DNA from: Neocallimastix lanati (nom. inval.)
Lineage: Eukaryota > Neocallimastigomycota > Neocallimastigomycetes > Neocallimastigales > Neocallimastigaceae
Direction of reading: 5' to 3'
Length of the DNA stretch: 35,000 nucleotides
Assembly (NCBI GenBank): GCA_016946835.1
Contig: JACVTC010000115.1
Coordinates: 1-35,000, forward strand
A model generated the notes under the pieces. It saw nothing but the letters and a program-made list of their open reading frames with translations, made no database searches and had not been told where the DNA came from. Position numbers and translations under genes: made by a program. Each line of letters begins with the position of its first letter. Position 1 is the first letter of the stretch. Of the stretch, positions 1,501 through 23,203 are shown piece by piece.

Positions 1501-1506
1501 TATAAA

Positions 1507-1805
1507 TGTTAAGGTTTTAGAGAATTAAATAAAAATAAAGTAAGGAAACACAAATTTTATTTATTTATTTATTATTTTTATTTATAAATTTATTTGATTT
1601 TATTTGATGATATTTAAAAATTAGTAGCAAAATTTACAACTATTTATATTTTTTTTTCAAGGCATAAAAGTTGTTCTTGCCACTAAATTACATTTTATTT
1701 ATTTTTTTTTTTAAAAACTATTAAATTTAAATTGATTTTTATAATTAATTATATAAAATTTAATTATAACAATATAAATAAAATACATTTATAATATTAA
1801 TAAAA

Positions 1806-1863
<58 letters not shown>

Positions 1864-2359
1864 TTATTTATTTAAAAATATCTAAAATATTACTAATAAG
1901 AATTTATTTAATTGGCTATAATTTTTATTACAATCTGTTAAAATATTCAAATAAAAATAAAAATACTATTCTAATATAAAGGTTTTTAATAAAATAAAAT
2001 ATTTTTCAATATAAAATAAAACATTTCGATATAAAATTTTATAATAAAAAGTTAAAATATAATATATAAATTTTTAATTATCAATATATAAAAATATTAT
2101 TAATATAAATTTTCATTATTAATATAAAAAAAATAAGATTTATTATTAATATTGCTAATATAAGTTTTAAATATATAAAAATATTACTATTAATATAAGA
2201 TTTAATATAAAAATATAAAGTTTAATATAATTTTTGATTTAATTTTTGATCTTTGGATTTAAAAATTTATTAAAGTACAAAAATAATAATGTACACATAA
2301 TGTATTAGAAATAAATCGTAGATTTAATTAAGAATGCATTATTTAGTACATTCTTATCA
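1507..2359 (-). repeat. 5' LTR of element I copy 1 (LTR A)
   Basis: 853 bp with the canonical plus-strand ends TG...CA (TGTTAAGG to TTATCA). It holds a poly-T run of more than 50 nt (about 1808-1860). It is recognisably the same LTR as 2364-3239 and 9559-10433 but differs around 1541-1620 and in the T run. It is followed by CATA at 2360-2363. Confidence 0.88.
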
Positions 2360-2363
2360 CATA

Positions 2364-2691
2364 TGTTAAGGTTTTAGAGAATTAAATAAAAATAAAGTAA
2401 ACAAACACAAATTTTATTTATTTATTTATTTTATTTATTTATTTTTTTTTTATTTGATTTTATTTTTATCTTATTTGATTTTATTCGATGATATTTAAAA
2501 ATTAGTAGCAAAATTTACAACTATTTATACTTTTTTTTCAAGGCATAAAAGTTGTTCTTGCCACTAAATTACATTTTATTATTATTTTTCTTTTTATATA
2601 TAAAAACTATTAAATTTAAATTGATTTTTATAATCAATTATATAAAATTTAATTATAACAATATAAATAAAATACATTTATAATATTAATA

Positions 2692-2747
<56 letters not shown>

Positions 2748-3239
2748 CTAATCTATCTAAAATATTACTAATAAGAATTTATTTAATTGGCTAAAATTTT
2801 TATTACAATCTGTTAAAATATTCAAATAAAAATAAAAATACTATTCTAATATAAAGGTTTTTAATAAAATAAAATATTTTTCAATATAAAATAAAACATT
2901 TCGATATAAAATTTTATAATAAAAGTTAAAATATAATATATAAATTTTTAATTATCAATATATAAAAATATTATTAATACAAATTTTCATTATTAATATA
3001 AAAATAAAAAAATAAGATTTATTATTAATATTGTTAATATAAGTTTTAAATATATAAAAATATTACTATTAATATAAGATTTAATATAAAAATTATAAAG
3101 TTTAATATAATTTTTGATCTAATTTTTAATCTTTGAATTTAAAAATTTATTAAAGTACAAAAATAATAATGTACACATAATGTATTAGAAATAAATCGTA
3201 GATTTAATTAAGAATGCATTATTTAGTACATTCTTATCA
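2364..3239 (-). repeat. 3' LTR of element I copy 2 (LTR B)
   Basis: 876 bp with TG...CA ends, almost identical to LTR C including the TTTA-rich stretch and the roughly 50-nt poly-T run (about 2697-2747). It begins 4 bp after LTR A. Confidence 0.92.
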
Positions 3240-3257: not shown

Positions 3258-6200
3258 TCAAGCTTCTCTGTAAGCGGAGTTAAACTTTACTAAATTTTTA
3301 AAATGAACATTCCTATCGAGTTGTTTCCCAGTTTTCTGATCGATTAAGGTTGCCGTGTTGAATTGAATTTTTAAAATTTTAAATGGTCCATTGTAATATG
3401 GTTCTAGCTTAGTGCGGCTAAAGTTTCTAACAAGAACAAGATCACCAGCTTTTAATTCTTTTCCTTTTTTCATACTTATTTGTTCTTCTCGTCTTGTTGC
3501 CCAATACTTGTTAGCATTCTTCACATTTTCGCATGCTTCTCTAGTCCATTGATAATGACGAACAAATTTTTCCATTAAAATTTCATCATACGATTTACCT
3601 GCATTTTCAATTGTTCTTATGGCTATATCATAAGGCTGTTGGTCTTCTCTTCCATATACTAATTCAAAACTAGAATGTCCGGTAGCTGTGTTTTTGGTAG
3701 TTCGAAGTGCCCATAAAGCAGAAGGTAAAACTTCATCCCAATCTTGATTTTTCCTTCCTAATAAACGAAGTAATTTTCCAATTTCTTTATTTCGGTTTTC
3801 AGTGAGACCATTGGATTCAGGGTGATAGGTAGCTATGAATTTTACATAAACATCATAAAGATCAAGAAAGATTTTAGTCATATCAGAAGTGAATTGGACT
3901 CCATTATCTGTAGTAATAACTTGAGGCACACCATGTCTTGCAAAAACGTTTATTAAAAATTTAATTATATCAGAGGAAGTTATGTTTTCAGTGGGTTCGG
4001 CTTCAACCCATTTGGTAAAGTAATCAACAGTTACTATAATATATTGATTATTATTTCTTGTTTTTGGTAACGGTCCTATAATATCTAATCCTAAATGCAC
4101 AAAGGGACCCTCCACTTTAGTTGGATGGATTTCGGTTGGTTCTGGATATGGTTGAGGACGATTTAACTGGCATTTTTCACAATTACTAACAATTCTTTTG
4201 ATATCTTTAATCATATGATTCCAATAAAAGTTTTTCTTAAGTCTTTGATATGTTTTGTAATATCCTTCGTGGCCAATATTATGAGCTTCTAAAATTAATT
4301 TAAACCTTTCATTTTCGTCCGTTATTAATTTTCTATAATTTCCATTGTCGATAAAGTAATCTTCACCATCAATAACAGTAAACTTTTCATTAATAAATTC
4401 CTTTATAACTTTAGATAATAATTCTTCATTATTTCCATTAGTAATTTTTGTTAATAATATCTTTCTCTCTTCCTTACTTTTCATTCTTGAAAGAGCATCA
4501 GCTAACACATTCTTTTTACCTGATTCATATTTTATATTAATTCCAAGCATACTAGCGGTTAGACACCATCTTGTTTGCCTTGCATTCAAAGGTTCTTTAT
4601 TTTTAAATAAACCAACTAATGGTTTATGATCTGTGTAAATAGTTGTAGGTAATGGATTTCCTTCAATATAAGATTTAAATTTAGTCATACAGTAGAATAA
4701 AGCTGTTCCTTCCAAATCTGTGATACCATAATTCTTTTCAGCTTTCTTCAAACTTCTACTTATAAAGTGTATTGGATGCTCCTTACCGGTTTCTTCTTCT
4801 TTTTGTAAAAGAACTCCACCAATTCCATTATACGAAGCATCAGTTCTAATGATAAAAGGTTTGTCAAATGACGGAAATTTTAGAATAGGTGCATTGATTA
4901 ATTTTTCTTTTAGGAGTTCAAAGCTTTCTTGTTGTTCTTTATTCCATTCATATTTAGTATTCTTTTTCAATAATTTACATAAAGGTGAGGTAATTTGAGC
5001 ATATTTAGGGATAAAGTCACGATAATACCCTATTGCTCCTAGAAATGATCTTAATTCATGAATTGATGAAGGGGCTTCCCACTTCTTAATAGCTGTTATT
5101 TTACTTTCCATGGGACTTAATCCTTTAGTAGTAAGTTTGTGACCTAATACATCAACTTCAGTTTGAAGAAAATGGCACTTTTCAATATTAATTTTTAACT
5201 TGTTTTCTTTAAATACTTCTAATACTTGTTTAATATGAATTAAATGTTCTTCGATACTTTTTGAATAGATCAAAACATCATCAATAAATACATAAACAAA
5301 TTCACCAATAAAAGGGAATAAAATTTTATTCATTTCTCTTTGGAAGGTTGAGGGAGCTCCAGTAAGTCCAAAAGGCATAACCTTAAATTGATAATTTCCA
5401 AACTTAGTAGTGAAAGTGGTTACTTCAACGCTTTCTTCATCCATTAAGATTTGGTGAAAACCAGAAAATAAATCAAGAGTTGTAAATATTTTAGCTCCTC
5501 CGAGACTATCAAAAATTTCATCTATATATGGAACTGAATAAGAATCTTTTTCTGTCATATCATTGACTTTTCGGTAGTCAATGCACAAGCGCCACTTTCC
5601 ATTGTGTTTTAGAATGAGTACTACTGGAGATGACCATTCTGAACAGGATGGTTCTATCAATCCTTTCTTAATAAGCTTTGTAAGTTCTTCTTTTAAGATA
5701 TCTGATTTTAATTTAGTTAACCTATAACTTCTTAATTTTACTGGCTTTGCATTTGCTTTCAAACGGATCTTATGTGGTGAAAGTTTAGAAGGAGTTAGTT
5801 CTTCTGTTGAAGTGGCAACTATGTCAATCATTTCTTTGAGAATTTTAATAATTTGTTCTTTATAATCTTTATTTAAGGTACTTAAAAATTCATCACTCTC
5901 AATAAATTCCATTGGAGTTAATTCCTTTATAATTTCCTTTTCATTATTCGTTTCTTCAACTTTTCTAATAGTGCAGATTATACTTTCTTCATCATAATAT
6001 TGATTATTTATTTTAGCTATTTCTTCGTATTCACTTTCTGACAAAAGTTTACATAGACTGTTTAAGGTTGGATGAATAAATAAACAATGATCGATTTGAG
6101 TTTTAAAGTTTATTAACATATCATAAAATGAGTCTTCTTTCTCAATAATTCTAAAGTCCGCATTAAATTCATAATTATTAATTTTTACTGGTAATCGAAC

Positions 6201-7262
6201 AATAATTCCTTCCGAGTATTCTTCATCTTGTGTTGCTAGTTGGATTCTTCCACGACTTTTTCCAACTATTTCATATTCACCAGGTAATTTATCAAAATAC
6301 TGCTTAGTAACGATGCTTAGGTTACTACAAGAATCAATTAAAAGTTTTCCTAGTACTCCGTCAACACTTGCATCAACCATTGCTAAGTCTTCTTCGGCTA
6401 CTTCATTACTTTTACTTATGTAGCTATGGTCATAGTTATTTACTAATAAAGTTCGTGCTATTACATTGTCTACAGTTCCAATTATTTTAGACTTTTCTAA
6501 CTTTAAACCTTGAGTTAATTGTGAACGAATTTTAGGACATGCATTCAAGAGTTGACCTATCGTAATACTGGATTTAAGATTATTTAAATCATCCATAATA
6601 TTGTAAGGTTCTTTATTATTCATCATTTTGATATTCCTTTTTACTAATTGAGTATTTCCATTATTAGTTTCCTTAGTTTTTGTTGAAATTAATTTTTCCA
6701 AAGTATTAGTTTTATTTTGTTGATTATCTTTATTCATTTCTAGATCTTCTATTTCATTATCGATTACAAGTATATCTTCAGATTCAACTTTTTCCTTTCC
6801 TTTTGATGAATAATTGTTGTTTTCTTCTTTACTTTCTCTTACTCTTGTCATATTTCTTAATTCCTTTTCTTTTTGTTTTTCTTTGTTAATATTTGGTTGA
6901 GTTAAAATTGAAGGAAGTATTTGATTTTTATAAACTTTATTTGGTTTATTATGCAGCTCATTTTCTTTCTTCTTTCTTAAAGCAGGAGTTGCAAAAGGAC
7001 GTGGATTATCTTTTAAACTTTTATGTACTTTCTTGGAATTATTTTCTTCTTTTTCGCTGTTATTATCATTCATTTTTCTTTTTACAGCATTTATAATGAT
7101 ATCATCCTCACTTTCAGTTGTGTCACTAAAATCAGATTCTTCAGATTCTTCGTTAAAGGAATTATTATCAATTGGAGTATTCTTAGTAAAAGTATTATTT
7201 TGTAAATTATTTAATGAAGCTATTGTTTTGTCATTGGGAGTGCTTCTGCTCCCATTTAGAAG
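3258..7262 (-). CDS. pol: Pol polyprotein of element I: protease, reverse transcriptase, RNase H, integrase
   Basis: Ty3 Pol that copies element RNA into DNA and integrates it. The frame is open from 7292, and its first ATG is at 7073 (1271 residues from there). I start it at 7262, where a -1 frameshift from gag would enter. Residues counted from that ATG: protease near 247 (LLIDSCSNL, with Cys where Gly is usual); RT about 440-640 with D534 and FIDD at 596-599; RNase H with D745, E788, D815, D859; integrase zinc site H931, H935, C965, C968; catalytic D997, D1056, E1092 (35 residues between the last two); GPF at 1229-1231. There is no chromodomain. The N-terminal 200 residues are Lys/Asn-rich linker. 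The stop lies 18 nt from the 3' LTR. No internal stops were seen, so it may be active apart from the odd protease motif. Confidence 0.93.
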   Translation of the reverse strand, partial: LLNGSRSTPNDKTIASLNNLQNNTFTKNTPIDNNSFNEESEESDFSDTTESEDDIIINAVKRKMNDNNSEKEENNSKKVHKSLKDNPRPFATPALRKKKENELHNKPNKVYKNQILPSILTQPNINKEKQKEKELRNMTRVRESKEENNNYSSKGKEKVESEDILVIDNEIEDLEMNKDNQQNKTNTLEKLISTKTKETNNGNTQLVKRNIKMMNNKEPYNIMDDLNNLKSSITIGQLLNACPKIRSQLTQGLKLEKSKIIGTVDNVIARTLLVNNYDHSYISKSNEVAEEDLAMVDASVDGVLGKLLIDSCSNLSIVTKQYFDKLPGEYEIVGKSRGRIQLATQDEEYSEGIIVRLPVKINNYEFNADFRIIEKEDSFYDMLINFKTQIDHCLFIHPTLNSLCKLLSESEYEEIAKINNQYYDEESIICTIRKVEETNNEKEIIKELTPMEFIESDEFLSTLNKDYKEQIIKILKEMIDIVATSTEELTPSKLSPHKIRLKANAKPVKLRSYRLTKLKSDILKEELTKLIKKGLIEPSCSEWSSPVVLILKHNGKWRLCIDYRKVNDMTEKDSYSVPYIDEIFDSLGGAKIFTTLDLFSGFHQILMDEESVEVTTFTTKFGNYQFKVMPFGLTGAPSTFQREMNKILFPFIGEFVYVFIDDVLIYSKSIEEHLIHIKQVLEVFKENKLKINIEKCHFLQTEVDVLGHKLTTKGLSPMESKITAIKKWEAPSSIHELRSFLGAIGYYRDFIPKYAQITSPLCKLLKKNTKYEWNKEQQESFELLKEKLINAPILKFPSFDKPFIIRTDASYNGIGGVLLQKEEETGKEHPIHFISRSLKKAEKNYGITDLEGTALFYCMTKFKSYIEGNPLPTTIYTDHKPLVGLFKNKEPLNARQTRWCLTASMLGINIKYESGKKNVLADALSRMKSKEERKILLTKITNGNNEELLSKVIKEFINEKFTVIDGEDYFIDNGNYRKLITDENERFKLILEAHNIGHEGYYKTYQRLKKNFYWNHMIKDIKRIVSNCEKCQLNRPQPYPEPTEIHPTKVEGPFVHLGLDIIGPLPKTRNNNQYIIVTVDYFTKWVEAEPTENITSSDIIKFLINVFARHGVPQVITTDNGVQFTSDMTKIFLDLYDVYVKFIATYHPESNGLTENRNKEIGKLLRLLGRKNQDWDEVLPSALWALRTTKNTATGHSSFELVYGREDQQPYDIAIRTIENAGKSYDEILMEKFVRHYQWTREACENVKNANKYWATRREEQISMKKGKELKAGDLVLVRNFSRTKLEPYYNGPFKILKIQFNTATLIDQKTGKQLDRNVHFKNLVKFNSAYREA

Positions 7263-7268
7263 TTTAAA
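7235..7268 (-). promoter_or_regulatory. Programmed -1 ribosomal frameshift signal, gag to pol
   Basis: Sense-strand slippery heptamer T TTA AAC at 7268-7262 is in the correct gag phase, with only the TTC codon between it and the gag stop. A 7-nt spacer follows, then a hairpin with a perfect 6-bp stem TGGGAG/CTCCCA (7254-7249 with 7240-7235) and an 8-nt loop. Slipping one base back gives TTT AAA CTT CTA AAT GGG, which is exactly the pol frame. A second possible slip site, A AAA AAT, lies a little upstream in gag. The GC-rich stem stands out in this AT-rich DNA. Confidence 0.82.
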
Positions 7269-8167
7269 GACTTTTTGGAATATATTTCTTTTTTATTTTT
7301 TTCCATAATCTTATTTAATTGAGGGCAATAATATGAGTAATGACCTTCTTCCTTACAGAAGAAGCAAGTTTTAACGGATAAATTTCTCATTTTCTGGGTT
7401 GATTCTTCTATAATATCTTGAGGTTTCGGTTTATTATTTGTTTGATTTGTTTGGAAAGTTTCGTTTCTTCTTTTAGGATAAAGTCTTGAAGTAGTACTGT
7501 TTTGATTATTTTGATTATGTTGGGAATTATTAACATTATAGGTATTAATATTATTGTTCCTTACAGAAAGTCTATCTACTTTCTCGGCAATTTTGAAAGC
7601 TTTATCCATACTTATATCATCTTTAAGGGATAATTTCTTCCAGGCTTCATAATTATTTTGAATAGAATCAATATAATCTAGTACACCAATGCGCTTTCTT
7701 CTCTTTTTATCAAGTTTAGTGTACAAAGTTCTATATCTTACATTAAAGTCTTTAATCTTTTCGTTTCTTTTAATTCGCATTGCACGAAGTTCTTTAAGAA
7801 GTAAATTTTGGTCTTCTTTAATACCGTAAAAATTTTCAAGACTTGAAATAATTTTTTCAAGGGAAGGAAATTTAATATCATCATCAACATTTTCTTCTTC
7901 ATCATCATCTTCTTCTTCATCTGATGAATCATCACTTTCATCATCACTATCTTCTCCCAAATCTTCAATAACGCGTTGTACTTCACCAGAGCTGGTAAGT
8001 AAACAAGCATTAAATATTGTTTCCGGATCTGTGATACCTTGTATCTTGATCCAAAGTTTTAATTCAGTAGCCCAGGACTTTATATCTAAATTGTCCTTGC
8101 TAAGCTTCACTATGTCTCGTAATTCTTTCTTTAATTCTTTAAAACTTAAAGTACTTTTAGTAGACAT
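7256..8167 (-). CDS. gag: Gag capsid/nucleocapsid protein of element I
   Basis: A 303-residue Gag that should form the virus-like particle packaging element RNA. Residues 1-200 have the helical retrotransposon Gag pattern, interrupted near residues 80-115 by a very acidic Asp/Glu-rich insert. An Asn/Gln-rich linker (about 205-240) follows. The C-terminus has one zinc knuckle, C268-C271-H276-C281 (CX2CX4HX4C). The ATG at 8165-8167 is the first in frame after the leader. The gag stop at 7256-7258 overlaps the open pol frame by about 37 nt, and a frameshift signal sits there, so Gag should be the main product and Gag-Pol the minor one. Confidence 0.9.
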   Translation of the reverse strand: MSTKSTLSFKELKKELRDIVKLSKDNLDIKSWATELKLWIKIQGITDPETIFNACLLTSSGEVQRVIEDLGEDSDDESDDSSDEEEDDDEEENVDDDIKFPSLEKIISSLENFYGIKEDQNLLLKELRAMRIKRNEKIKDFNVRYRTLYTKLDKKRRKRIGVLDYIDSIQNNYEAWKKLSLKDDISMDKAFKIAEKVDRLSVRNNNINTYNVNNSQHNQNNQNSTTSRLYPKRRNETFQTNQTNNKPKPQDIIEESTQKMRNLSVKTCFFCKEEGHYSYYCPQLNKIMEKNKKEIYSKKSLNF

Positions 8168-8537: not shown

Positions 8538-9114
8538 GAATTTTGTAATTTAGTATATTTGTAGTAATAAATTTAGAAGCAAAGTTTTATTTATTATTTT
8601 CACCTTTCAAAAATTTTTCTTTTTAAACGATAAATATTGTATTGTTATAGCTAATAAAATTATTAATTAATTATAATTATTAAATACAAAAAAATAATCT
8701 TTATTGTCGTACAATCTGATAGTACACACTGTCTGACGTGCAGCTTACCTAATGGTGTCATGCCACGCGTGTGCCACGATTACTATATTCAATATAAAAT
8801 ATAGCAGTTCAGAGCCCACTAGCCCAATTACTATGTAGGATAAACTTAATCCGATAATCTATGTACGGAATAAAAAAATTTTAAAAGTATTCAATAATAT
8901 TTTTATTAACTAATAAAAATTAACTAAAAACACAATATTTTCAAAGTAAATTAAGATTCTATTACAGGAATTATATAACAAATAAAGTACCAGTAATAAA
9001 AAAAAATAAAAAAAATTTAAATGGCGAAGTTAGCCAAAGTCTGATACTTTATATAATAAAGTGCCTTATAACTAGCACAAAGAAAAGTAAAAAAAATTAT
9101 ATAAAAAAAACAAT

Positions 9115-9299
9115 CTTACGCCTTCGGTGACGTAAGCTCCTTATTCGCCAGTGCTTGGAAAGTACCCGCACCTTCGTGTGTTGAAACGTTGAAGGTTGAA
9201 CTATTATTACCGGGTCGGTAACCAAATACCTTCGTCTACTTTCCAATTAATCTCCAAATTAACTACTATTCAATAACCTACTATGAATAGAGTTAATTT
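9115..9299 (-). ncRNA. Structured 5' leader RNA, element I copy 2
   Basis: Within the element transcript. Hairpin 1 (9115-9136) has stem CTTACG/CGTAAG and a 10-nt loop reading TCACCGAAGG in sense. Hairpin 2 (9256-9299) has a 9-bp outer stem AAATTAACT/AGTTAATTT and a 7-bp inner stem CTATTCA/TGAATAG around a loop containing AGTAGGTTA. Further perfect stems are TTACCG/CGGTAA (9207-9221) and GGAAAGTA with TACTTTCC (9157-9164 with 9237-9244). Element II has the same two loops on different but still paired stems (12230-12269 and 12402-12423). Function unknown. Confidence 0.68.
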
Positions 9300-9439
9300 G
9301 TTGCTATCTGAGAATACACTGTGTATGAGCTCTATCCGCTCCTTGTTATAATTTTACAAAATTTGTTTTTTTAGAATCTTAATTTTACTTATTTAAAAAA
9401 AATTTTTTTTTATATATATATATCAAACAAGCGCCATAG

Positions 9440-9535: not shown

Positions 9536-9552
9536 CCCCGATATCTCCACCA
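9536..9552 (-). other. tRNA-type primer binding site, element I copy 2
   Basis: The sense strand reads TGGTGGAGATATCGGGG, 6 nt after the 5' LTR end, matching the site in copy 1. It is the expected position and start (TGG) for priming of minus-strand DNA by a tRNA 3' end. Confidence 0.65.
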
Positions 9553-9558
9553 TATAAA

Positions 9559-9886
9559 TGTTAAGGTTTTAGAGAATTAAATAAAAATAAAGTAAACAAA
9601 CACAAATTTTATTTATTTATTTATTTTATTTATTTATTTTTTTTTTATTTGATTTTATTTTTATCTTATTTGATTTTATTCGATGATATTTAAAAATTAG
9701 TAGCAAAATTTACAACTATTTATACTTTTTTTTCAAGGCATAAAAGTTGTTCTTGCCACTAAATTACATTTTATTATTATTTTTCTTTTTATATATAAAA
9801 ACTATTAAATTTAAATTGATTTTTATAATCAATTATATAAAATTTAATTATAACAATATAAATAAAATACATTTATAATATTAATA

Positions 9887-9941
<55 letters not shown>

Positions 9942-10433
9942 CTAATCTATCTAAAATATTACTAATAAGAATTTATTTAATTGGCTAAAATTTTTATTAC
10001 AATCTGTTAAAATATTCAAATAAAAATAAAAATACTATTCTAATATAAAGGTTTTTAATAAAATAAAATATTTTTCAATATAAAATAAAACATTTCGATA
10101 TAAAATTTTATAATAAAAGTTAAAATATAATATATAAATTTTTAATTATCAATATATAAAAATATTATTAATACAAATTTTCATTATTAATATAAAAATA
10201 AAAAAATAAGATTTATTATTAATATTGTTAATATAAGTTTTAAATATATAAAAATATTACTATTAATATAAGATTTAATATAAAAATTATAAAGTTTAAT
10301 ATAATTTTTGATCTAATTTTTAATCTTTGAATTTAAAAATTTATTAAAGTACAAAAATAATAATGTACACATAATGTATTAGAAATAAATCGTAGATTTA
10401 ATTAAGAATGCATTATTTAGTACATTCTTATCA
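9559..10433 (-). repeat. 5' LTR of element I copy 2 (LTR C)
   Basis: 875 bp with TG...CA ends, one base shorter than LTR B. The roughly 50-nt poly-T run (about 9892-9941) is the likely site of that difference. CATA follows at 10434-10437, then element II sequence resumes. Confidence 0.92.
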
Positions 10434-10456
10434 CATAACTAGTAAATTAGTAACTA

Positions 10457-10539
10457 TGGTTCAATGGTAAGTTACCATAACCATCGGGCTGAACCCTTAG
10501 GGTTCGACACCCACTCTTTCCAAAATTTAATAACTTTTT
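10457..10539 (+). promoter_or_regulatory. Candidate Pol III promoter inside LTR D (A box, B box, T5)
   Basis: TGGTTCAATGG (10457-10467) fits the A-box consensus TRGYNNARNNG. GGTTCGACACC (10501-10511) fits the B-box consensus GGTTCGANNCC. They are 33 nt apart, the spacing in a tRNA gene, and TTTTT follows at 10535-10539. The region also forms two perfect hairpins: ATGGTAA/TTACCAT (10464-10478) and GAACCC/GGGTTC (10491-10505). Acceptor, D and anticodon stems of a tRNA do not pair, so it is tRNA-like only in its promoter. Confidence 0.55.
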
Positions 10540-10570
10540 ATTTATTATAACTAGAATATTAAAGAAATTA

Positions 10571-10610
10571 CTAGTGTTTATCGGTTAAACAATTGAACCG
10601 ATAAAACTAG
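10571..10610 (+). other. Long LTR palindrome (15-bp stem)
   Basis: CTAGT then TTTATCGGTT pairs with AACCGATAAA then ACTAG across a 9-nt loop, with one bulged G at 10576. The same structure is at 15990-16029 in the 3' LTR. It lies between the Pol III-like boxes and the TATA box. Confidence 0.65.
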
Positions 10611-10806
10611 AAAAATCTATTTTATTAATATTTTTTATCATTTTTTATCTAAGATTCATTTTCTAGAAAGAAAACTTGTTTTCTTTAATTTTCTTTAATT
10701 TTCTTTAATTTTCTTTAATTTTCTTTAATTTTCTTTAATTTTCTTTTATTTCTAATAATTACTAATAACAACTGATAACTTAAAATAATTAATTTTCCTG
10801 AAAAAC

Positions 10807-10835
10807 TATAAATAGGTGTAAAATTTCATAATAAA
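10807..10835 (+). promoter_or_regulatory. Pol II TATA box and AATAAA signal of LTR D
   Basis: TATAAATA at 10807-10814 and AATAAA at 10830-10835 lie upstream of 10848, where the self-priming match predicts transcription to start (41 nt from the TATA). The order U3, TATA, start, U5 is as expected. The 3' LTR has the TATA copy at 16226-16233. Confidence 0.6.
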
Positions 10836-11033
10836 ATATTTTTACTTGTGCTTTTATTAATTAATTTTAAAGTAATTTAAAATATTACAATGATTAATTA
10901 ATAAATTAATAATTTATATTTTTACTAATAAAAAAACTTATTTTAATAAAACATATTTTGAATTACTTTAGTGTCGAGAACCTTTTGTGTAAAAAACCTT
11001 ATAACAATCTTAAGTAACATTAAGATTTGTTAC

Positions 11034-11044
11034 AATAAAAGCAC
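11034..11044 (+). other. Self-priming primer binding site of element II
   Basis: AATAAAAGCAC begins at the last LTR base and is the exact complement of GTGCTTTTATT at 10848-10858 in the LTR. No TGG-type tRNA site is present. In Tf1 the first 11 nt of the mRNA fold back on the primer site beside the 5' LTR, so an exact 11-nt match at the right place suggests the same mechanism. Confidence 0.72.
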
Positions 11045-11471: not shown

Positions 11472-11508
<37 letters not shown>

Positions 11509-11905: not shown

Positions 11906-11951
<46 letters not shown>

Positions 11952-12047
11952 TAATAAAATTTACTAATAAGGAGAATCTGTATAGACAATCCTTATTCTC
12001 TTTTATTCTTTTTATTTAATTCCTTAATTTTGTGTTGGCCCTCGCTG

Positions 12048-12429
12048 GTAGGCTCAGACGTAAGCCCTACATCTCAGCTCTTTCAGTTAAAATTCACTGA
12101 AAGAACAGCAACACAAAAAAAAAGAAAAAGAATTTTTAATTTTTAATAAGTTTTCGTGTCCATATTTTTAAGGTAATACGATAAATATACTAGGAGCGGT
12201 TAGAGCTCATAAACAGAGTTTCGGCGTATATTAACTAGTTTCAGTAGGTTAGAAACTATAGTCGTTAATTATTTGAATATAAACGGGCTTCAAAACCCTA
12301 GAGTGTAAAGAGAGTGTGGATTAAAAGAGAACCACATCCTACCAACCAACTTCAACAGTTCGGTGGTTGCTCTATTCGAATAAGCTCTGGCGAATAAGGA
12401 ACTATAGTCACCGAAGGCTATAGGTTGGT
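12048..12429 (+). ncRNA. Structured 5' leader RNA of element II
   Basis: A 380-nt transcript leader upstream of the ORF. It has hairpins GTAGG/CCTAC (12048-12070) and CTTTCAGT/ACTGAAAG (12080-12103). GGAGCGGTTAGAGCTCATA (12193-12211) is shared almost exactly with element I. The two-tier stem ATTAAC-TAGTTTC / GAAACTA-GTTAAT (12230-12269) surrounds AGTAGGTTA. The hairpin CTATAG/CTATAG (12402-12423) surrounds TCACCGAAGG. A closing stem ACCAAC/GTTGGT joins 12341-12346 with 12424-12429. Loops match element I; stems differ but still pair. Confidence 0.68.
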
Positions 12430-12633
12430 CGTGAAGGTAAAGCGACATTAAAATATATAGTTTTTAATTTTATTTTGAGGTCTAGTATATACCTCTAGTT
12501 AGTAGCTTTTGCCGGTTTTTTTTTTTTTTTTAGTTGTAAGGCATTAAAAGCGAAATTTAAATTGTATTTACCTTAAATAAAAGTTCTTCAATAATTAAAT
12601 TATCAAATAAATCTATTTTGAAAAAGCAAGAAA

Positions 12634-15534
12634 ATGGAAGAAGATACCTTTTTAAATGCCAGTGCTACCAATAAAGATGGATTCGCTGGAGATCGTCGTT
12701 ACTTTAAAGGATTTTTAGCAAAAATGAATCTAATATTCATGCTTGATCCCGAACGATTTAATAATGATCCAATAAAGGTTGCGTATATCATTTCTAGACT
12801 CTACGGCTCTGCAATGAACTGGGCTGCTACTTTAATTGAAAATAACGATCCATGTTTAAATAATTATCAACAATTCACCTCAAGATTTAAGGCTACTTTT
12901 GGGAGCTACGATTCGACTTTCATTGCTAACCAGAAATTGAAGACAATTAAACAAAGACGCATCGGTGAAATAACAAACTATATTCTCGAATTCAATAGAT
13001 ATTCTGACGAATCTTCATGGAATGAAGAAGCTAAAATGAATGCTTTCCTCAATGGACTTAACGATCAAATTGCTACCAAAATATATGAAATGTTTCCAGG
13101 ACCAAGATCTCTTTTCGCATTACAAACTATTGCCTCTAGACTAGATAGTCGTATTGCTGCGCATAGACAATTTTCTAATCCACAAAACAGATCAAATAAT
13201 AATAATAATAATGATAACAGAAATAATAACAGAAACAATAATAATAGAAGACAAAATAAAGGGAAAAAGCCTTTCAAATTCAATACCCGAGGTCCTTTGT
13301 CTAATGAAGAAAAGGAAAGAAGAAGAAAAGAACATCTTTGTGCCTATTGTGGATCAGCTAACCATTCCCTTGACCATTGCCCACTAGTAAACAGAAATAA
13401 AGCCTCTTCTAGCAGTTCTCATATCACTAATCTTGAACCTAAAACCATTCCAAGAATAAGAATTTCTGATCAACCCGATGTAAAGCTACCAATTTTTGAA
13501 TTCTCTCTTAATGTTTCCAATATTTCTACAAAAACTAAAATTCTTCTGGACTGCGGCTCTCAACTTAATTTAATGGATGTATACTTCGCAAAAGAAAACA
13601 ATATTCCTTACTCTAGTGAATGTAATCTCCCTAACGTATCTGGAATCGGTGGTATTCAGTCAATCATAGGTAAAACTGCACCAATATCCTTAAAATATAA
13701 AAACCACATATGTAAAACAAGTTTCTATGTTGTTGACCTTCCTTCGTATTGTGCTATTTTAGGCATTGACTGGCTAGAAACTCATAATCCCACTATAGAC
13801 TTTTCCTCAAAAGAACTCTCTTTCAAATCCAACTATTGTATTTCCAATTGTCTTGTACTTCCCAGCGCCTTCACTACTTATGCTCCTTTAAATACTATTA
13901 AAAAGAATTATAAAGAAGAAGAAAATAAAGAAAGTAATAAAATAAATAAATCATTACCAAAGAAATTACTTCCATTTAAGGATATTTTTAGCGAAATATA
14001 TGCAAATGCACTTTCTCGAAGACCTGATTATGCATCAAATGAGGAAGAACTGTCCTCTGACATTCCTTTCAACGTCTTAAAACCTGAAAATTTTTGCGCT
14101 ACCACTTCCATTGCCTCTTTAAATAATCAAATACTCCATGAATACAAGAAAGATAAATATTATAATGAAATCTGCAAAAAACTCAACTCTAAAGAAGACT
14201 TCCCAGAATCTATTAAATTTTCTTTAAGCAACAACTTCTTACTCGTTGATGGAAAAATTTATGTTCCCCTTAACTGTCGTTCTTCCGTATTAAATATCTG
14301 TCATGACTCCCCATCTGCTGGTCATTTTGGTTTCAAGAAAACTTTCTCCTTAATCAATCATGACTTTTGGTGGTCATCTATGCAAAAAGATATTAAAGAC
14401 TATATTAAATCTTGTGAAATCTGTTGTCGTTCAAAGGATTCTAGACACAAACCTTATGGATTTCTGAACCCACTAGAAATTCCTGACCGACCTTGGACTT
14501 CGCTTTCCATGGATTTCATCACTGATCTCCCTTCATCTAATGGATATACTTGTATTTTTGTTGTTCTCGATAGATTCACAAAAATGGGTCACTTCATCCC
14601 ATTTCCTAACGTTCCTTCTTCTGAAGATACTACTAAGGCATTCATGACTCATATTTTCAGACTTCATGGATTACCAAATGAAATTCTTTCAGATAGAGGT
14701 ACTCAATTCACTTCTAAATTCTGGACTTCTATTTGCAAAACTCTCAATATCTCAATGAAACTTTCTTCTCCCTTTCACCATCAAACTAACGGTTTAACGG
14801 AGAGAGTGAACTCCGTTGTAGAACAATTTCTCAGATGTTACTCTAATTTTAAAGGTTCAAATTGGCATAATTATCTATTCCTTGCTGAATTCTGCTACAA
14901 CAATTCTATTCAAGAATCATTAAATAAATCACCTTTCTACGCAAATTATGGTTACAACCCTCGCTTCTCACCAGCTGTGCCAAGTTCTATTGATGTTCCG
15001 CGTGCTGAAGAATTTACAACAAACTTAGCGAAACTTTTCAAACAATTAAAAGAAAATTTAAAACAAGCAAGAAATAAACAAGAAAAATTCGCCAACCAAC
15101 ACAGAATTAAAGCACCTGAATTCAAAGTAAACGACAAAGTTTGGATAAACAGTTCACTCATATTAAGAAATAAAAATAAAAAATTAAAACCAAGAAAGTT
15201 AGGACCTTATAAAATAATTGAAAAAGTCTCTCCAGTAACATACAAAATTGATTTTCCAAAAATTATAAGAATACACCCAATTATCCCTGTATCAGAACTT
15301 GAGCCATACTACAAAGACAATTTTAAAAGAAAAAAGGAACCTCCACCTCCAATTATAGTTAATGATGAAGAAGAATATGAAGTAGAAGAAATACTTGATA
15401 AAAGAAAACATTATGGAAAGATTCAATATCTTATTAAGTGGAAAGGATATCCTTTATCTGAAGCATCTTGGGAACCGGAAGAAAACCTCAACTGTCCAGA
15501 AATACTCAAAAAATTTAATAAATCAAACAAATAA
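12634..15534 (+). CDS. Fused Gag-protease-integrase-chromodomain polyprotein with RT/RNase H deleted
   Basis: A 966-residue open frame. In order: Gag (about 1-180); Asn/Arg-rich linker; zinc knuckle C236-C239-H244-C249; aspartic protease with DCGS at 306-309 and ILG at 375-377; junction near 454; integrase zinc site H557, H564, C594, C597; catalytic D627, D687, E723; a GPY module at 857-859; chromodomain about 914-962 with aromatic candidates Y915, W936, W946. At the junction, LPFKDIFSE (normally just before RT) runs straight into [11 protein letters not shown] (normally the end of RNase H), so about 400 or more residues are missing without breaking the frame. The protein could still make particles, process itself and integrate DNA, but needs RT from another element. 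The ATG at 12634 follows the leader and gives the expected Gag start. Confidence 0.9.
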
Positions 15535-15840: not shown

Positions 15841-16453
15841 TGTAACGAAACTCATAACTAGTAAATTAGTAACTATGGTTCAATGGTAAGTTACCATAAC
15901 CATCGGGCTGAACCCTTAGGGTTCGACACCCACTCTTTCCAAAATTTAATAACTTTTTATTTATTATAACTAGAATATTAAAGAAATTACTAGTGTTTAT
16001 CGGTTAAACAATTGAACCGATAAAACTAGAAAAATCTATTTTATTAATATTTTTTATCATTTTTTATCTAAGATTCATTTTCTAGAAAGAAAACTTGTTT
16101 TCTTTAATTTTCTTTAATTTTCTTTAATTTTCTTTAATTTTCTTTAATTTTCTTTAATTTTCTTTTATTTCTAATAATTACTAATAACAACTGATAACTT
16201 AAAATAATTAATTTTCCTGAAAAACTATAAATAGGTGTAAAATTTCATAATAAAATATTTTTACTTGTGCTTTTATTAATTAATTTTAAAGTAATTTAAA
16301 ATATTACAATGATTAATTAATAAATTAATAATTTATATTTTTACTAATAAAAAAACTTATTTTAATAAAACATATTTTGAATTACTTTAGTGTCGAGAAC
16401 CTTTTGTGTAAAAAACCTTATAACAATCTTAAGTAACATTAAGATTTGTTACA
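15841..16453 (+). repeat. 3' LTR of element II, complete (LTR E)
   Basis: 613 bp with perfect terminal inverted TGTAAC/GTTACA. Bases 15853-16453 match LTR D throughout. It carries the same palindrome, TATA and six 10-bp repeat units. Confidence 0.92.
15876..15958 (+). promoter_or_regulatory. Candidate Pol III promoter inside LTR E (A box, B box, T5)
   Basis: Second copy of the split Pol III-type signal: A box 15876-15886, B box 15920-15930, TTTTT 15954-15958. Being in U3 of the 3' LTR, it is copied to both LTRs at each new insertion. Confidence 0.55.
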
Positions 16454-17541
16454 GGAAATTAAAGAAGGCACTTTATGGACTTAAACAAGCAGGCCGCCAG
16501 TGGAATGAAAAATTAAATGAAACATTAATAAAAATAAATTTTAAAAGGCTCATTAGTGAACCCTGTGTGTACATAAAAGAAAATAAAAACAAAGAAATTA
16601 TTTGTATATTAACAGTGTATGTAGATGACATTCTAATAATAGGTAAGAAAAATGAAATATTAGATGTGAAAGATCAGATAAAAAATATTTATAAAATTAA
16701 AGATATAGGTGAAGTTGATTTCGTAATCGGCATAAAATTCGAAAAACAAAAGAACGGATATATCCTACACCAAAAAGGATATATAAAGGAATTAATTGAA
16801 AGATACAATTTATCAAATACTAAACCAGTAAGAAATTTAAAACCTGTAAATGAAATTAAAAATAGATACAAAGCTTTCAATGAGACGAGTTATAGAAGTG
16901 CCATAGGAAACTTACTATATTTAGCTGTATGTACAAGACCAGATATAATATTCTCAGTAGTCAGAGCCGCAAGAAAAAGTAAAAACCCAACAATAGAAGA
17001 CTGGCACAATGTGAAGAAAATTTTTAGATATTTAAAGGGTACTTTGAATTATGGTATAAAATTTTCAAATGAAAAAACTTTAAAAGTTTTTGCTGATGCT
17101 GATTATGCCGGAGACGAAGAGACAAGGAAATCAACCTCAGGTTTCGTAATGATGATCGGTGACTCACCAACAAGTTGGTATTCAAAATTGCAACATGTCG
17201 TTGCTACTTCTACAGCAGAATCGGAATATATAAGTATTAGTGATTGTGCAAAACATAGTTTGTGGTATATGAACATTTTTAAAGAATTAAATATCAAAAT
17301 AAAATCCGTGACTATAAATACTGATAATAAGGCCGCTATCTATAATTGCCAGAATAGATCAATTAACGCAAAATCTAAACATATTGATATTAAATATCAC
17401 CACGTAAGAGATTTAATAAGTAAAGGTACAATAAAATTAAAATATATTAAGTCCGAGAACAATCTAGCAGACGGATTCACAAAATACCTAAATAGTACAT
17501 CAATGGATAGATTCAGAAATAATTTACTTTTTAAAATCTGA
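16454..17541 (+). CDS. Ty1/copia Pol C-terminal part: reverse transcriptase and RNase H (truncated)
   Basis: The frame opens in KLKKALYGLKQAGRQW, the standard copia RT block, and is open to the stop at 17541. The RT catalytic YVDD is encoded at 16618-16629. The RNase H part has FADADYAGD, STAESEYIS, NTDNKAAI and a HIDIKYHHVRD block, all typical of copia. An upstream in-frame ATG at 16390 is LTR E sequence and not the real start. Everything before the RT core (Gag, protease, integrase, RT fingers) is absent here because element II inserted. No inactivating mutation is seen in the remaining part. Confidence 0.9.
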
Positions 17542-21412: not shown

Positions 21413-23203
21413 TTATTGGTATGGTTCAAGACCTAAACATTCTGACATGGTAACTGGTGTGTATCCTTTGCTCTTCATATATTTAATTTCTTCACGTGCT
21501 GATTTTATTAAACTTTCCTTGGAGATGCCTTCATAGTAGCAATGATTCAATGAGATGATAGGCTTGCCAAGTTTTTCATTAAACTTACTAATAGCATAGT
21601 CGATATCTCCCTTATTACTCCAGTCCATGGTATCAACATTCCATAAAATAATGGCGGTATAGCCGAGGGATTTAAGTTCAGTTTGAACAGTACTACTACC
21701 TGCACCTTCTCCATAAGGTGGACGAATGAAAGCTGGTTTCACTCCAATGATATCCTTTATCTTTTCATCTAATTTGGTAATTTCTTCTCTAATTTTACTC
21801 CTACTTATAGAGGCGAGACTAGCATGGGAATAGGTGTGACTAGCAATTTCATGACCTTCATTATACATTCTTTTAATAATTCTCTTTCCTTCGGAACTCG
21901 TAATATCCATGACATTGTTACCATTAACAAAGAAGGTGGCTTTAACTCCTTCAGATTTAAGGAAATCAAGGAGTTCTTCATCATATACGTATGGTCCATC
22001 ATCAAAGGTGAGTGCCCATTGATTACTTTTCTTACATTTGTCATAGACTGTAGCTCTATCAGATTTAGAACCATCAGATGAATCACCAGAAGAACCACTA
22101 CCACATACACCGTATTCAGATTGACAACCAGCATCACAATAATCACTGGTAGAACCGCACCAGCCATATTCACTACAACATTCACCATCTGGACAGGCAG
22201 CATTATTATATTCTTTACCACAGCGACCATCGGTTGAGGTAGGATGTGAAGAAGTAGTAGTAGATTTAGTTTTAGTAGTGGTAGTTTTAGTAGTAGTAGT
22301 TTTAGTAGTAGTGGTTTTAGTAGTTGAAGATTTAGTAGTAGTAGTTTTAGTAGTAGTAGTTTTAGTAGTAGTGGTTTTAGTAGTAGAAGATTTCGTAGTG
22401 GTGGTTTTAGTAGTAGAAGATTTAGTAGTGGAAGTTTTAGTAGTTGTGGGTTTAGTAGTGGAAGTTTTAGTAGTAGTAGTTTTAGTTTTAGTAGTAGTAG
22501 TTTTACTAGTAGTGGTAGTAGTAGTTGTAGTAGTTGTGGTAGTTGTAGTGGTAGTGGTAGTGGTAGTATTATTACATTTACCAAATTCTGATTGACAACC
22601 CTTATCACAATAAGCAGATGAAGTACCACACCAACCGTATTTACTACAGCATTGACCTTCAGGACAAGAAGTATTACCATTATTAGAACCACAACGATTA
22701 TCGGTAGAGATAGGATGACCATTTGATGAAGTAGGTGAAGGTTTAGTAGTAGTAGTTGTGGTAGTAGTAGTAGTAGTAGTTTTTGTTTTTGTTTTAGTAG
22801 TTTTTGTTTTGGTAGTAGAAGTAGAGGACGTTGTGCCACCATTAGCACAAGAACCAAATTCGGATTGACAACCACTACCACAATAAGAAATAGAGGTACC
22901 ACACCAACCATATTTACTACAACATTCACCTGGAGGACAAGAAGTATTACCATTCTTAGGACCACAACTACCATCTTCAGAGACAGGGTGGAAAGTTGAT
23001 GATGGAGTCTGAGAATCACGAGTAGAATTACAAATACCGTAACCTTCCTGACAGCCGGTACCACAATACTTATCGGACGTACCACACCAACCATACTTAC
23101 TACAACATTTACCGTCACCACATTTACCAATACCAGGACCACAATCACCAGCGTAAATTCCAGCCACTGAAAGAGCGGCAAATATTAAAGTAGTAAATTT
23201 CAT
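21413..23203 (-). CDS. Secreted CBM18-containing polysaccharide (chitin) deacetylase, CE4
   Basis: 596 residues. A signal peptide (1-18, ending GIYA) is followed by four hevein-type CBM18 modules (about 19-59, 79-119, 169-210, 327-367), each with the CCSKYGWCG-type core and eight Cys. Long Thr/Lys linkers separate them (about 121-160 and 211-322). The C-terminal NodB domain starts near 385: TFDDGP with D401 and D402, metal ligands H456 and H460 (SHTYSH), RPPYG at 494-498, WNVDTMDW at 521-528, and catalytic LNH with H554. All CE4 motifs are present, so activity is likely. The enzyme should remove acetyl groups from chitin or another acetylated polysaccharide outside the cell. Acetylxylan esterase is possible within CE4, but four chitin-binding modules favour chitin. 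A decayed copy lies 1.8 kb downstream. No intron seen. Confidence 0.93.

Follow-up and report, generated by a model that had tools for sequence, protein, structure and literature searches.

Covariation points to a folded RNA domain, M1, in the leaders of Ty3-type retrotransposons from two reverse transcriptase groups of one fungal genome

Retroviruses and LTR retrotransposons carry Psi/DIS leaders, structured RNA located between the primer binding site and gag, and Psi is usually specific to one Gag lineage. Chromoviruses of the Tf1 type are self-priming. BARE1 and BARE2 are Ty1/copia elements, not Ty3 elements. PMC3735527 describes for this barley pair that one member, deficient in a protein, relies on the other for packaging, BARE2 being unable to make Gag. 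RNA stability elements are also known in retrotransposons: the ENE of Evade is described in PMC12501189 as a 3' UTR element that binds the poly(A) tail. Here we compare with these systems a leader domain, M1, found in two neighbouring Ty3-type elements and in further families of the same genome.

The window, that is the whole stretch of DNA analysed, comprises 35,000 bases (contig C19:1-35000, 21% G+C) of the 199 Mb, 762-contig genome of Neocallimastix lanati. Its two elements differ in gene organization and priming, as a sequence-only reading of the window had stated. Element I has separate genes for gag (7256-8167, minus strand; related to the ORF of family V, E 1e-14, and without Pfam match) and pol (3258-7073, minus strand; RT, RNase H and integrase), gave no chromodomain match, and has a tRNA-type primer binding site of the TGG type (TGGTGGAGATATCGGGG, 9536-9552, minus strand). 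Its LTRs are at 1506-2359, 2363-3239 and 9558-10433, the last being the other LTR of the full copy; at 1506-3239 two copies, arranged head to tail, adjoin each other at their LTRs, with 91.7% identity. Element II, next after the element I copies, is bounded by LTRs of 100% identity (10434-11034 and 15853-16453) and has a single ORF (12634-15534, plus strand) encoding gag, integrase, SH3_Tf2-1 and chromodomain; in the window copy this ORF matched neither RT nor RNase H. Its self-priming site (11035-11044, plus strand), directly after the LTR, is complementary to GTGCTTTTAT within the LTR at 10848-10857. Judged by eye, family III has an LTR-complementary primer site too, as does II', where the letters differ (families described below). 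Since M1 is also present in element I, which has a tRNA-type primer site, it is not part of self-priming. The Ty3/gypsy gene order, RT-RNase H followed by integrase, was found in I, II', IV and VI; in V, RT-RNase H precedes the integrase zinc domain, the integrase core being unmatched. The window also contains a Ty1/copia-type RT fragment (RVT_2, 16454-17541) adjoining the 3' LTR of element II, and an ORF (21413-23203, minus strand) with, by eye, chitin-binding-like repeats and a deacetylase-like end, which together with the base composition would fit an anaerobic gut fungus.

M1 of element II lies at 12193-12423 (plus strand) and had 40 scored genome matches of 95-100% identity; M1 of element I is present on the minus strand at 9115-9342 (copy a) and 1059-1286 (copy b). 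All leader strings quoted in the sequence-only reading were found in the window, and the range 9115-9299 that it gave for element I does belong to the domain, but omits the 5' part reaching 9342. In element II the domain consists of hairpin P1 (12194-12208, GAGC-GGTTAGA-GCTC), stem P2 (12214-12389, CAGAGTTT/AAGCTCTG), which closes a variable inner domain, and hairpin P3 with the loop TCACCGAAGG (12402-12423). In element I, P1, hairpin 2 and the P3 hairpin are at 9327-9341, 9256-9299 and 9115-9136 (copy a) and at 1271-1285, 1200-1243 and 1059-1080 (copy b), all on the minus strand. The two pairs of alternative stems that had drawn attention to these leaders are as described: P3 has CTTACG/CGTAAG in I and CTATAG/CTATAG in II around TCACCGAAGG, and the inner stem of hairpin 2 (12236-12258 in II) has CTATTCA/TGAATAG in I and TAGTTTC/GAAACTA in II around AGTAGGTTA. 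The outer stem of hairpin 2 fared less well: ATTAAC/GTTAAT pairs in II, but one pair is lost in II', where by eye CGGC/GCCG competes. Nor is hairpin 2 a general feature, as III, IV and VI have other hairpins at that place. On the 3' side of M1, element II has hairpin P7 (12477-12495, GAGGT..ACCTC, by eye; comparable to GTGC..GCAC in I and III) and hairpin P8 (12505-12551, loop GGTTTTT..GTTGTAA). Long A tracts are located in the II leader at 11476-11503 and 11925-11946, and similar tracts precede M1 in IV and VI. When the leaders were folded alone, that of element I was unusual for its composition (z -4.5), whereas that of II was not (z -0.9). The case for structure therefore rests on comparison, not on energy.

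For the genome search, loop and joining-strand letters served as anchors and stem letters were left free; families with altered loops would escape such a search. The pattern CTGGCGAATAAGG-N8-TCACCGAAGG with up to 3 mismatches had 542 sites and the reversed control none, a likeness beyond chance. GGAGCGGNTAGAGCTCATA with up to 2 mismatches had 521 sites (control 0), KGTCACCGAAGG 64 (control 7) and HTCACCGAAGG 104 (control 38). The exact anchor pattern gave no match in collections of viral contigs and of genome contigs. Reading of genome loci yielded five further leader families, II' (L011-L023), III (L009, L024-L030), IV (L034, L036 and others), V with V' (L037, L040, L046 and others) and VI (L056-L060), and a single old relic, VII (L063). 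As the families were drawn from part of the matches listed (about 100 per search), their membership is at least that given. In all seven non-relic families M1 is in sense orientation, 5' of a gag-like ORF, and a gag match follows it in 8/8 copies of II (L001-L008) and 13/13 copies of II' (L011-L023). Among the 18 ATCACCGAAGG sites read, 17 were leaders (nine of IV and eight of V-type, one of them truncated); the remaining one, L044, was rejected because it resembles coding sequence, as were both TTCACCGAAGG sites read (L054 and L055). Seven further places comprised four members of VI, a variant of I, a coding-like sequence (L062) and the relic VII. TCACTGAAGG had 77 sites (control 31), and the single site read was a decayed II-like relic (L069); of the two GGCGAATAAGG-NND sites one is VII and the other (L035) is no leader.

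A search with model R1 over 29 sources comprising 185,022 bases yielded 28 matches at E ≤ 1, several of them sequences that had been used to build the model. Twenty-six were below 1e-6, every one in a leader or leader relic; the other two were a leader truncated where the locus ends (L064) and a weak match (L069, E 0.033). No match was obtained for eight of the 29. In two other Ty3-type elements (in L020 and L021) no M1 was found in the stretch ahead of gag, also when the filters were switched off (best E 4.6 and 0.33), so that M1 is common, not universal. The leader of an M1-less Ty3-type element at L020 7230-7360 has a repeated ACTGGGAGTTCGAACCAG-like hairpin. Rfam release 15 had no match in the window at the curated threshold; at E ≤ 1 there was none for leader I, and for leader II one outside M1 (RF02192, 18.6 bits against 45). 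By title and beginning of abstract, in mostly freely accessible papers, no such module was found in the literature on gut-fungal retrotransposons and LTR-element leader RNAs.

The families have a common fold, in which P1 is followed by P2 round the inner domain, a conserved joining strand of the GCGAAUAAGGA type and, on the 3' side, the P3 hairpin, whose loop is UCACCGAAGG. M1 is about 185-250 bases long, and the inner domain including P2 132-193 bases. The P2 stems are CAGUGU/GCACUG (I, V), CAGAGU/GCUCUG (II), CAGAGU/ACUCUG (III), CGUUGU/ACAACG (IV), UAGAGU/GCUCUA (VI) and UAGUGU/GCACUG (VII), and all 42 cells (6 pairs in 7 rows) are paired. P3 has CUUACG/CGUAAG (I, III), CUAUAG/CUAUAG (II), CUUAGA/UCUAAG (IV), CUUAUA/UAUAAG (V) and, with the loop changed too, UUAUAG/CUAUAA (VII); 40 of 42 cells are paired, the exception being the 7-base stem of VI with its two mismatches. 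P1 is paired in 29 of 32 cells (eight rows), all three misses being in V and V', where pairing is poor; in IV and VI its letters differ and still pair. Dealing the 3' strands anew gave on average 23.1 (P1), 35.3 (P2) and 27.1 (P3) paired cells, and the fractions of deals with at least the observed pairing were 0.0013, 0.0021 and 0.0006, respectively. In a MAFFT alignment of the 3' part, 97.6% of the 42 P3 cells were paired (75.7% in shuffles) and the covariation score was 0.738 (0.249 in shuffles), neither being equalled in 500 shuffles. Weaker measures were reached more often: both-side changes, seen at 4/6 pairs, in 15/500, and further pair types in 40/500. Slid registers pair just 22-58%. 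Because the rows are few and related, these statistics are not to be taken as probabilities. Helix registers were set by visual inspection; flanking conserved letters fix those of P2 and P3 and, less firmly, the others.

Among the outer helices P8 is the best supported. Around a GGUUUUU..GUUGURA loop its outer stem is different in each of the five families II, II', III, IV and VI, with 30/30 cells paired (19.0 when dealt anew; 30 reached in 0.009 of deals) and at least two pair types at each of the six pairs; pairing of the inner stem was reached in 0.20 of deals, and by eye no P8 was seen in I and V. P4 (GACGAA-GGT-ATTTGGTT-ACC-GAC in element I, 9214-9236, minus strand) has the stems GGU/ACC (I), UAG/CUA (III) and UCU/AGA (IV). 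The pattern GACGAA-NNN-AUUUGGUU-N'N'N'-GAC with free stems had 426 sites (control 0), and among the matches listed (about 100) just three stems occurred, all pairing. P5 (12348-12360 in II, plus strand, AAC-TTCAACA-GTT) has the loop UUCAACA within CGU/ACG (I), AAC/GUU (II) and CUC/GAG (IV). P4 and P5 comprise three rows each, and strands dealt anew reach their pairing in 0.16-0.17 of deals. With P2, P3 and P8 showing covarying pairs in independent families, M1 and the adjoining hairpin have the features expected of a conserved structured RNA.

Copies with broken stems, which the sequence-only reading had named as evidence against it, do exist. A sublineage of II' present at three places (L021/L031, L032 and L033) has two of the six P3 pairs broken. 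Its copy in L021 has a gag and RT that are 98-99% like those of II', thus the sublineage is not plainly decayed. Single P3 breaks occur in L024, L074 and L075, and L074 has one in P2 as well; L074 and L075 are family II copies at 95-96%. At the level of families, which were found without the use of stem letters, P2 pairs fully in 7/7 and P3 in 6/7 rows, which supports the proposal that selection has acted on RNA structure.

To see how the leaders relate to the genes that they precede, RT-RNase H sequences were compared. They form two groups, one of I, IV and V (56-61% identical) and one of II' and VI (55%), with 38-42% identity between the groups. A copy of family II in contig C744 does have RT; its 601-base RT piece shows 59% identity with VI and 56% with II', compared with 37% with I (over 198 amino acids), which places family II in the second group. 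The leader likeness of II and II' is accordingly no example of a signal borrowed by a family without RT. These two leaders share a 347-column segment at 93.9% identity (1148-1492 of the II leader, 12182-12526 of the window), whereas their Gags are 37% identical and their gag-piece DNA has no match longer than 14 bases. Their integrase and the end of pol have 67-68% DNA identity, and their LTRs show short weak matches only, the II' LTR end not being delimited. III has the Gag closest to that of II (64% identical), and the inner domains of M1 differ between the two; III and I are identical over 40 bases across P3. The Gags of I and V are 29% identical, and among the matches listed at E ≤ 10 there was none between the Gags of I and II. 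Other leader segments recur as well. M3, which in II forms a branched fold on the 5' side of M1 (12031-12115, plus strand; CUGGUAGGCU..CCUACA.CUCAGC), has a relative downstream of P8 in VI (L056, minus strand), in which the stem of the second hairpin differs (CUUUCAG/CUGAAAG vs UUUGGUU/AACCAAA). M4, a segment of the element I leader (8712-8849, minus strand), also occurs in the M1-less element of L021 (about 8690-8845); by eye the two are about 90% alike, and they have in common an AUG and a stem in which the changes match; the Gags are 51% identical. These disagreements between leader and coding histories make the leaders look like mosaics. The sequence-only reading had regarded the module as older than the lineages or exchanged between them; occurrence of the core in two RT groups supports the former, leader segments at odds with Gag histories support the latter, and M1 looks both old and exchanged. 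Leaders of elements I and III recur as oppositely oriented pairs some 3 kb from each other, often near contig ends (L027, L028, L029 and L030), perhaps as a duplicated subtelomeric block.

Several copies with M1 have no RT. In family II these are the window copy and that in contig C63, where a 601-base piece matches the window integrase region at the same spacing and so indicates the same layout. In III, all six copies that cover the stretch from gag to integrase (L024-L028 and L030) have M1 and no RT match there; these six have part of the integrase only. In L026, L027 and L030 the two LTRs of III have 99.7-100% identity. In II', RT of this family was found at high identity in 12 of 13 copies, L014 being the exception. 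The RT-less copies of II and III have kept gag as well as M1, therefore the retention of M1 gives no means of telling packaging from translation.

Taking these observations together, we tentatively interpret M1 as a folded cis-acting domain that may mark the genomic RNA of Ty3-type elements for packaging and/or reverse transcription. The conserved loops and the joining strand would form a recognition surface, through which the genomic RNA could be so marked, and RNAs without an RT of their own might then still be moved. In I and II the domain is located as a Psi would be, between the primer site and gag of the genomic RNA. Dimerization through GAGCTC, a role suggested in the sequence-only reading, is not borne out: the palindrome is lacking in IV, V and VI, and in I-III it is part of stem P1, not of a loop, so that the conserved loop palindrome of a DIS is not found. 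A kissing interaction between UCACC of the P3 loop and GGUNA of hairpin 2 was considered and rejected; it is perfect in V (GGUGA), has one mismatch in I and II, and III, IV and VI have no such loop.

We slightly favour a signal for packaging or replication over a host-directed element, which is nearly level with it. M1 could possibly serve nuclear export, RNA stability or protection and be open to any retroelement lineage of this genome. The similar loops in two RT groups of 38-42% identity with very different Gags speak for this, as does the exchange of leaders between lineages, and the stability elements mentioned above provide a precedent; since the core is alike in lineages with little Gag likeness, a common host partner fits at least as well as Gag. 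On the other hand, the window leaders have no Rfam match at the curated threshold, M1, unlike an ENE, is not a U-rich internal loop situated close to the 3' end, and among the loci read it was seen just in retroelement leaders and their relics.

Less probably, M1 drives gag translation, by internal entry or by shunting of ribosomes past the fold. The leaders of I, II, II' and III are long (about 1.2-1.9 kb, the II' LTR end being estimated), and the stretch between M1 and gag is free of AUG in II, II', III and V, with one AUG each in I and IV (5.3 expected in IV). In VI it contains 11 AUGs (10.7 expected, no depletion), impassable for plain scanning, but entry at M1 would still meet them. AUG is, however, also depleted upstream of and within M1, which internal entry leaves unexplained: summed over I, II, II', III and V there are 6 AUGs upstream, 1 within and 1 downstream of M1, compared with 26-43, 7-35 and 22-49, respectively, for the other five orders of A, T and G. 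The upstream stretch of V in this sum is just 275 bases, and IV and VI, with undelimited upstream stretches, were left out. Depletion on both sides fits scanning ribosomes rather than simple entry at M1, and because AUG is rare on both sides in five families, nothing in the pattern calls for ribosome entry there; the AUGs upstream of an entry site that an IRES tolerates were not seen in these families. Moreover, M1 and gag are separated by as few as 210 and as many as 947 bases.

It is improbable that common descent or recent recombination alone accounts for the likeness, the paired stems being inherited and not selected. Copies within a family are near-identical, I and III share their 40 exact bases, the II' variant with broken P3 persists at three places, and seven related rows are few; against this, the stems differ between families and the loops hardly do, pairing has been kept in P2, P3 and P8, and slid registers pair poorly. 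A self-cleaving ribozyme, which the compact fold and conserved joining strands might suggest, is hardly credible, given that Rfam has no match and that cutting between primer site and gag would, from general knowledge, destroy the genomic RNA.

Returning to M1 as a signal in genomic RNA, one can imagine, as a possibility somewhat weaker than the signal itself, that Ty3 leaders of this genome are composed of a few RNA cassettes that fold independently (M1, P8, M3 and M4) in varied combinations, M3 being reordered, which would be passed between lineages. M1 would be the common key for a shared partner and would keep RT-less copies and families mobile. What is new here is an RNA domain without Rfam match that has covariation support across two Ty3 groups of one genome, with leader and coding histories plainly at odds in one case. 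It makes testable whether one RNA recognition signal can be common to retrotransposon lineages and how RT-less copies stay mobile, and the natural stem variants form a panel at hand with which structure can be probed and binding tested.

Compared with the known systems, M1 resembles Psi/DIS leaders in being structured and in its place, after the primer binding site and before gag, but its core spans two RT groups and it has no conserved palindromic loop. With Tf1-type chromoviruses the likeness is confined to the LTR-complementary primer sites of II and, by eye, II' and III. ENE triple-helix elements are, like M1, structured RNAs in LTR-element transcripts; M1, however, is in the leader, and the U-rich loop of P8 is at its end, not internal. 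The RT-less copies of II and III, which keep the leader, recall BARE2, with the difference that BARE2 is without Gag and these copies, whose dependence on a partner is hypothetical, are without RT.
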